Positions 52,281 through 53,716 of a DNA stretch of 53,716 nucleotides are shown piece by piece. Position 1 is the first letter of the stretch; each line of letters opens with the position of its first letter. The DNA is from an uncultured Verrucomicrobiota bacterium (GTDB lineage: Bacteria; Verrucomicrobiota; Verrucomicrobiia; Opitutales; Opitutaceae). The translations under genes were made by a program, and so were the position numbers. Location: positions 1 to 53,716 of the forward strand of contig CAJCBL010000209.1 in the NCBI GenBank assembly GCA_903960515.1. The letters are read 5' to 3'. The notes under the pieces are model-generated. The model was not told the DNA's origin and did not search any database. It was given only the letters and a program-made list of their open reading frames with translations.

Positions 52281-52284
52281 GGTG

Positions 52285-52405
52285 GAATTGCGGATTTCGG
52301 AATGCAGATTGCGGATTTCGGATTCCGGAATGTGGAGGGCGACGTATTCCGCCTGGGCTTTCCGGTTGCTTCACTCCGCAGTCCGAATTCCGCACTCCGC
52401 AATCG
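52285..52405. repeat. Inverted pair of ATTGCGGATTTCGGA-type repeats downstream of prfB
   Basis: The left arm (52285-52331) is made of ATTGCGGATTTCGGA words; the right arm (52371-52405) has the opposite orientation (ACTCCGCA, AATTCCGCACTCCGCAATC). CCGCACTCCGCAATC (52390-52404) is identical to 29446-29460. The arms can fold back on each other around about 40 bp. The tract fills the whole gap between prfB and the next gene. Confidence 0.85.
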
Positions 52406-52406
52406 G

Positions 52407-53550
52407 TCAGTCCTCCATCTTGATATCCTTGTTTCGGTGGCGGGGACTGCCGGCGCGCAGCCAGCCGTTGATGAAGCGGTCTAGGTCGCCGTCGAGCACG
52501 GCGTCTACATTGCTGGTCTCCACCCCGGTGCGCAGATCCTTGACCATCTGATACGGCTGAAGGACGTAGCTGCGGATCTGGCTGCCCCAGCCTATCTCGC
52601 CCTTCTCTCCGTAGAAGCGCTCCATCTCGCTGCGCTGCTCGTCAAGCCGCTTCTCATACAAGCGGGCCTTGAGCACATTCATGGCGCTGGCGCGGTTCTT
52701 GATCTGCGAACGCTCGTTTTGGCAGACCACCACGATGCCGGAGGGCACGTGGGTGAGGCGCACCGCAGAGTCGGTGGTATTGACGCCCTGGCCACCTTTG
52801 CCGGAGGAGCGGTAAACATCCACGCGGATCTCGCTCTCGGGAATGTCGATGGCGATGTCCTCGTTGATCTCGGCCACCACGTCGACGGCGCAAAACGAGG
52901 TGTGGCGGCGCTTGTTGGAGTCGAACGGGCTGATGCGCACCAGACGGTGGACACCGCGCTCGGCCTTCACGTAGCCGTAGGCGTTCTCGCCCTTGATGAG
53001 CATCGTGGCCTTGGTGATACCGGCCTGGTCGCCGGCCTGCACGTCCTGCAGTTCCACGGTGAACCCGCGGCGCTCGGCCCAGCGGTTGTACATGCGGAAC
53101 ATCATGTCGGCCCAGTCGTTGGACTCGGTGCCGCCGGCGCCGGACTGGATAGAGAAGATGGCGTTGTTCTTGTCGAACTGGCCGCTGAGGAAGGAGGCGA
53201 TCTCGAGCTCGTCGAGCTCGGCTATCAGCGCAGTCACAGTGGCGTCGAGCTCGCGGGCGTAGGCGTCCTGCTCGTCCTCGGTGGCGGCCTCGACCAGCTC
53301 CACCATCACGGCGGCGTCGTCGATCTTCTTCTGGAAGGCGATCACCGGCAGGATGGCGCGCTTGATGGTGTTGAGCTTGGCAATATGCGCCTGAGCCCGT
53401 TCCTGGTTGTCCCAGAAACCCGGAGCGCCCATCTGGCCCTCGAAGGCCTCTATCTCACGCTGTTTTTGTTCGCCGTTAAAGAAACCTCCACAGATGCCCG
53501 GCGCGCTTGGTGATGTTTTCGAGGTGGGAGAAGGTTTCGGGAGCGATCAT
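52407..53550 (-). CDS. prfB: Peptide chain release factor 2 (expressed by programmed +1 frameshift)
   Basis: Ends translation at UGA and UAA. A short zero frame runs from ATG 53550 ([20 protein letters not shown], then WRFL) to TAA at 53476-53478. The rest is read in the +1 frame ([20 protein letters not shown], then FWDNQERAQ), giving about 380 residues in all. Motifs: codon-recognition SPF in [15 protein letters not shown] and the catalytic GGQ in [20 protein letters not shown]. The alignment of both pieces with known RF2 is continuous across the shift. The frameshift site is described separately. Confidence 0.95.
53475..53490 (-). promoter_or_regulatory. Programmed +1 frameshift site of prfB, UAA variant
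   Basis: On the minus strand: TGGAGG, TTT, CTT, TAA, C. The Shine-Dalgarno-like GGAGG lies 3 bases before the CTT slip codon, the same spacing as in the known RF2 site (AGGGGG, TAT, CTT, TGA, C). The stop in the zero frame is UAA rather than UGA. After slipping, the next codon is AAC (Asn) rather than GAC (Asp). Confidence 0.93.
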
Positions 53551-53716
53551 GGTAAAGGCCAAAGGACAAGCGCCCGACTCGGGTTGCGCAACCGCGAAGT
53601 GCGCGAGCGGCAGTCATCGAATTGGCGATGCCTTGCCCCCCCCGTTCCCACGGGCCCACCGGCCCGCCAAAAGCCCGAGCCGCACCGGCCGGATGCTATC
53701 GTTCGCGGCCGCGAAC

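Follow-up and report, generated by a model that had tools for sequence, protein, structure and literature searches.

The prfB gene in the window, i.e., the whole 53,716-nucleotide stretch of DNA analysed here, very probably carries the standard autoregulatory +1 frameshift of release factor 2 (RF2) genes, with the in-frame stop codon changed from UGA to UAA. Textbooks present frameshifting in the RF2 gene as a model of autoregulation. The UAA variant as such is already in print, the window being a further instance. What may be added to existing knowledge, beyond the known variant, is a trace in a related genome (G002) where the frameshift has been lost.

Architecture of the frameshift site

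The gene lies on the minus strand, where a zero frame and a body in the +1 frame can be read from the sequence with one stop codon between them:

53479..53550, minus strand: prfB zero frame (leader), 24 codons from the ATG at 53550, ending ...LWRFL; also compared with relatives
53485..53489, minus strand: internal Shine-Dalgarno-like GGAGG, 3 nt before CTT; identical in relatives
53478..53481, minus strand: slippery CTT-T in the sequence, where tRNA-Leu would move from CUU to UUU, the mechanism being that given in the accessible parts of PMC12421855 and PMC5009743
53476..53478, minus strand: in-frame stop UAA in the sequence; most motif-bearing relatives have UGA there
53475, minus strand: C after the stop (weak-termination context); after the shift it completes the Asn codon AAC as third base
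52407..53477, minus strand: prfB +1 frame, RF2 body, 356 codons from AAC (53477-53475) to TGA at 52409-52407

The minus strand from 53490 to 53475 thus reads TGG AGG TTT CTT TAA C. An earlier note on this DNA had described a 24-codon zero frame and a +1 frame joined by GGAGG-TTT-CTT-TAA-C, and both frames are confirmed. So is the RF2 identity of the product, which matches the peptide chain release factor 2 model of NCBIfam (TIGR00020) at 491 bits (cutoff 370), as well as solved RF2 chains. The body contains what we take to be the SPF and GGQ motifs. The claim of the same note that UAA replaces UGA at the +1 programmed frameshift stands, with TAA read at 53478-53476, and so does the replacement of Asp by Asn at the join, where AAC opens the +1 frame.

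The window site combines an RF2 gene, a zero frame followed by a +1 body, and a Shine-Dalgarno-like element spaced 3 nt from CTT-T, and these are features expected of a +1 programmed frameshift. The stop is one that RF2 can read (UGA or UAA) and is followed by C, as TAA-C. The RF2-specific stop that characterizes the majority UGA subtype is absent, and the site belongs to the TAA form of the prfB frameshift, outside the UGA subtype. A search of positions 52300-53716 of the window against Rfam gave no match.

The consensus is given as YTT_TRA_C in the available part of PMC3711429. As far as the accessible text of PMC12421855 goes, 98.6% of 8,164 motif-bearing genomes have TGA and 1.4% have TAA, the latter in multiple phyla, with no TAG, which bears out the earlier statement that nearly all bacteria with this control use UGA. 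The same text gives a figure of over 99% TGA in its discussion, and mentions TGA in all but one sequence of earlier surveys; TAA sites are held there to be still sensitive to RF2, and TAA to be poorly tolerated. In the accessible portion of the mechanism review PMC5009743, slip-codon tests made with UAG agree with those made with UGA.

Distribution among relatives

Among the named relatives that were found by way of the protein are Opitutus, Didemnitutus, Lacunisphaera, and Cephaloticoccus, from which we place the window in the Opitutaceae. Of 80 named loci, TGA accompanies the slip site in 59 and CTTTAA occurs in none, while 20 are without the motif and one stops short of the site; a chance TTTTAA string lacking CTTT occurs near the place of the site in two of the 20 motif-less loci. 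The UAA form was encountered instead in the family genomes, where GGNGGTWTCTTTAAC matched 10 of 252 Opitutaceae genomes. Six of these matches are in prfB, the window's own included, and the other four lie outside prfB and were left uncounted as chance. The six UAA genes represent four genera, namely G000 and G001 (genus g1), G007 and G139 (g6), G156 (g60), and G197 (g4). G001 belongs to the genus of the window and has 87% protein identity, and G007 is a two-contig genome; both have TAA. A congener of G197 in g4, G005 (L016), carries TGA instead. In a sample of the phylum, GGNGGTWTCTTTAAC was found in 12 of 387 genomes, and in prfB only in the window's own; the remaining 11 matches lie outside prfB and were not counted, being regarded as chance.

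The genome of the window is a draft in 379 contigs, and an error of sequencing or assembly could in principle mimic the observed site, as could a broken prfB. The earlier note had considered the case in which all relatives have the UGA form and the window is in error, but inspection of related prfB genes shows TAA in six of the 252 family genomes, among them a congener and the two-contig genome, and the +1 frame is open over 356 codons in all six. Assembly error as the source of the UAA variant is ruled out by this recurrence in prfB of relatives, and the probability left to an error or a broken gene in general is negligible. GGAGG, the TTT spacer, CTT-T, and the C are intact in all six UAA genes, although the search pattern itself fixed most of these bases, the C included. 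Relatives have the site at the corresponding position of their prfB genes, with GGAGG, the 3-nt spacer, CTT-T, and C, so that by sequence comparison it is not a product of chance.

The less restrictive pattern TGGNGGTWTCTTTRR, which allows TGA, TAA, TAG, or TGG, matches 223 of the 252 family genomes, chance matches included. Among the matches listed there is a single one with TAG, in G120, which also carries the usual TGA site. The 29 genomes without a match comprise one in which the shift is lost (G002), 13 of genus g59 in which it is also lost, three with UGA in a variant site (G058, G064, and G159), and 12 in which the site could not be read, some of these genomes being incomplete. Of the chance-looking matches that were rechecked, G084 and G095 have UGA, G148 has lost the shift, and G164 gave no prfB match. 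Because the search pattern demands most bases of the site, genes with another spacer, Shine-Dalgarno element, or base after the stop escape the UAA count. In the phylum sample, 18 of the 387 genomes matched a UGA pattern that begins with C (CGGAGG...), but this pattern excludes the TGG codon of the family and offers no fair denominator.

Some minor observations were made in the same searches. G084 (L154) has TTT-TTT-TGA-C as its slip site, an instance of the UUU-U variant of the RF2 frameshift, which is rare. G235 has a possible N-terminal piece (C41). In G065, TGGTGGTTTCTTTGG occurs nine times, on contigs 39, 58, 80, 81, 97, 116, and 119, and for six of the nine copies the start of a contig is 42-59 bases away, a pattern resembling that of a mobile repeat at which the assembly breaks.

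Proposed mechanism and release factors

After the 24 leader codons, the ribosome would have tRNA-Leu on CUU and UAA(C) in the A site, while the 16S anti-Shine-Dalgarno sequence would pair with GGAGG. If release is slow, the tRNA would slip to UUU with AAC (Asn) as the next codon, and a 380-residue RF2 would be made; if release is fast, the product would be a 24-residue peptide. UAA is read by RF1 as well as by RF2, and because of this the switch should sense both release factors, and would probably work with less frameshifting, while RF2 continues to contribute. The expectation in the earlier note that the UAA form would give weaker or different feedback is plausible. The architecture and the recurrence of the site are direct observations; slipping in the organism of the window and the altered feedback are inferred.

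Besides prfB, the genome of the window has two genes with an RF-1 domain, the prfA-like (RF1) C289 and the short C298, which we take for ArfB-like judging by its size. All six UAA genomes, as well as G002, contain a prfA-like (RF1) match. UGA is still used as a stop codon, because the prfB gene of the window itself ends in TGA. The RF2 of the window has a Ser four residues before GGQ (RSSGKGGQ), presumably at the position corresponding to 246 in E. coli. According to the accessible part of PMC5373646, Ala or Ser is canonical at position 246 of RF2, and in the Ala246 form of E. coli RF2, decoding of UAA is shared with RF1.

An internal start codon could give an RF2 of 341 residues with no need of a frameshift. 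The ATG at 53432-53430 opens a 341-codon ORF and is preceded by GAGGGCCAG, and there is no clear Shine-Dalgarno element just upstream of the leader ATG, so that RF2 could arise mainly by internal initiation, with the frameshift as a relic. A Met is found at the same place also in the UGA relatives that were compared. Against this proposal, the leader varies less than the remainder of the gene: G000 and G001 differ at 4 of 24 leader codons and 109 of 341 others, and G007 and G139 at 4 of 24 and 113 of 341, with 4 and 2 differences, respectively, in the 15 codons between the join and the internal ATG. As an argument this is nevertheless weak, since two of the four changes in the former pair and three of four in the latter are non-synonymous and the other-frame control is not clearly worse. 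Across four pairs, between 2 and 7 of the 24 leader codons differ, and few changes in the leader do not by themselves prove that the zero frame is read.

A second argument against internal initiation is the retention of minority codons at the frameshift site. In the two UAA genomes sampled (G000 and G007), AGG accounts for 4.3 and 5.8% of the codons for Arg; the corresponding figures are 12.1 and 14.2% for CTT among Leu codons, and 20 and 35% for TTT among Phe codons. That AGG, TTT, and CTT stand together at the site, being minority codons, suggests that selection for the shift continues in the UAA genomes. We regard internal initiation as the main source of RF2 as very improbable.

The choice of stop codon at the site could also reflect demand, with UAA favoured by a high or low usage of UGA in the genome. 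In support of this, the available text of PMC12421855 associates loss of the frameshift with UGA usage; in that of PMC13245932, however, UGA usage gave P = 0.0576 after phylogenetic correction. In six genomes, two of each kind, stop usage does not separate UAA, UGA, and lost: the TGA share of stops is 0.59 (G000) and 0.63 (G007) for UAA, 0.52 (G005) and 0.62 (G021) for UGA, and 0.52 (G141) and 0.70 (G002) for genomes that have lost the shift, where the values come from samples of 260-400 kb with 113-193 genes each, where ORFs were called crudely with a minimum of 200 codons and a GC3 filter. These shares do not indicate that UGA usage drives the UAA form, and we consider stop-codon demand an unlikely cause.

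Origins of UAA and loss of the frameshift

A gene tree of prfB was built from the DNA downstream of the site, with 87 rows (58 UGA, 6 UAA, and 23 without the frameshift; 84 different). The rows are a selection: the truncated L126 and L148, which is the same gene as L116, were dropped, and named loci beyond L059 were left out except L062, L065, and L067. With the lost rows set aside, four changes between UGA and UAA are counted, and with UAA as label against all other rows there are five, four of which are forced by starred branches. Judged from this tree, whose bootstrap is not fully settled, UGA and UAA have been exchanged at least four times.

In G002, the third genome in the genus of the window, prfB (L124 121-260) reads ATG...TGG CGG TTT CTC AAT TGC GAA in a single frame. 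There is neither a stop nor a slip site, GGAGG is broken to GGCGG, and Asn (AAT) is kept at the join. Within the UAA clade, G002 pairs with G001 (100/88), and the clade of the three genomes has 100/100. It is a single draft genome, with a 10-N gap further down its prfB. The shortest history on the tree would have UAA replace UGA in the common ancestor of the genus, with G002 losing the shift afterwards.

In genus g59, the shift is gone in every genome with a readable site, 14 out of 15, and Asp (GAT) is found at the join; the single-frame loci L147, L149-L152, L155-L161, L166, and L167 have TTT CTC GAT or close variants. On the tree, g59 and the g6 UAA pair are sister clades, with support (93/84) that falls short of the starred level. 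Neither G002 nor g59 has kept CTT as the Leu codon: G002 and 11 g59 rows have CTC, three g59 rows have CTG or TTG, and the codon that follows ends in T (AAT in G002, GAT in g59).

These losses have a bearing on whether the UAA form is a drifting intermediate, i.e., a degraded sensor in a lineage on its way to loss, a reading that adds to the frameshift mechanism. The nesting of the in-frame G002 site (TGG CGG TTT CTC AAT) with G001 in the UAA clade and the position of the g59 loss clade next to the g6 UAA pair agree with this, as do the one-base deletions in prfB that compensate for lowered shifting in the accessible part of PMC13245932. There is, on the other hand, only one clear case, and g59 has Asp and so gives no sign of a UAA ancestor. 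All six UAA sites are intact, although the search pattern would miss decayed elements. UAA branches represent 2.6-5.6% of the frameshift-bearing branch length by parsimony, and the probability that at least one of five counted losses falls on them is 0.12-0.25, which is not significant; the five losses are really four, because a two-row outgroup loss is doubled by the rooting. By this test, the fall of a loss within the UAA clade is suggestive only. We hold a drifting intermediate to be possible, with somewhat less than even weight.

From the one case in G002, the sequences suggest that RF2 autoregulation can be lost by way of UAA. A tentative formulation, which we would not put above a reasonable guess, is that the change from UGA to UAA acts as a natural stepping stone, where termination by RF1 would lower shifting, and a later loss of one base would restore RF2 output and leave Asn as a dateable trace. 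The available text of PMC13245932 describes single-base deletions in prfB that compensate for lowered frameshifting in the laboratory, and proposes the same route for nature; the trace in G002 fits this impaired-then-lost route. We found no earlier report of a natural example like G002 in searches of an open-access library, and if the stepping-stone reading is true, G002 would be the first, as far as these searches show.

Comparison with known systems

As for the E. coli-type RF2 frameshift, the window site has a Shine-Dalgarno-like element, a 3-nt spacer, CTT-T, a stop, and C, preceded by a short leader and followed by RF2 in the +1 frame, but it differs in UAA for UGA, GGAGG for GGGGG, and Asn for Asp at the join. 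From the TAA form described in the accessible part of PMC12421855, where CTTTAA stands in a motif that is standard in other respects and the occurrences are scattered and seldom fixed, it differs in nothing essential; what the Opitutaceae add is a tree with four or more changes, and a sister species without the shift. Loss of the frameshift by deletion, as in the portion of PMC13245932 available, has its counterpart in G002, where a net loss of one base puts prfB in one frame. Unlike the losses in that study, which began from a changed slip codon, the one in G002 is natural, and the Asn that is kept may be a trace of a UAA ancestor. Why the RF2 frameshift is repeatedly lost is discussed in two recent papers, and the Opitutaceae provide a small natural series of UGA, UAA, and lost sites on which this question could be tested.

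Downstream of prfB, in the gap to the next gene (52281-52406 in the window), imperfect repeats of a TTGCGGATTTCGGA-like unit can be seen by eye. The gap 3' of prfB in G002 (L124 1226-1328) resembles that of the window, with AATC-rich repeats, also judged by eye.
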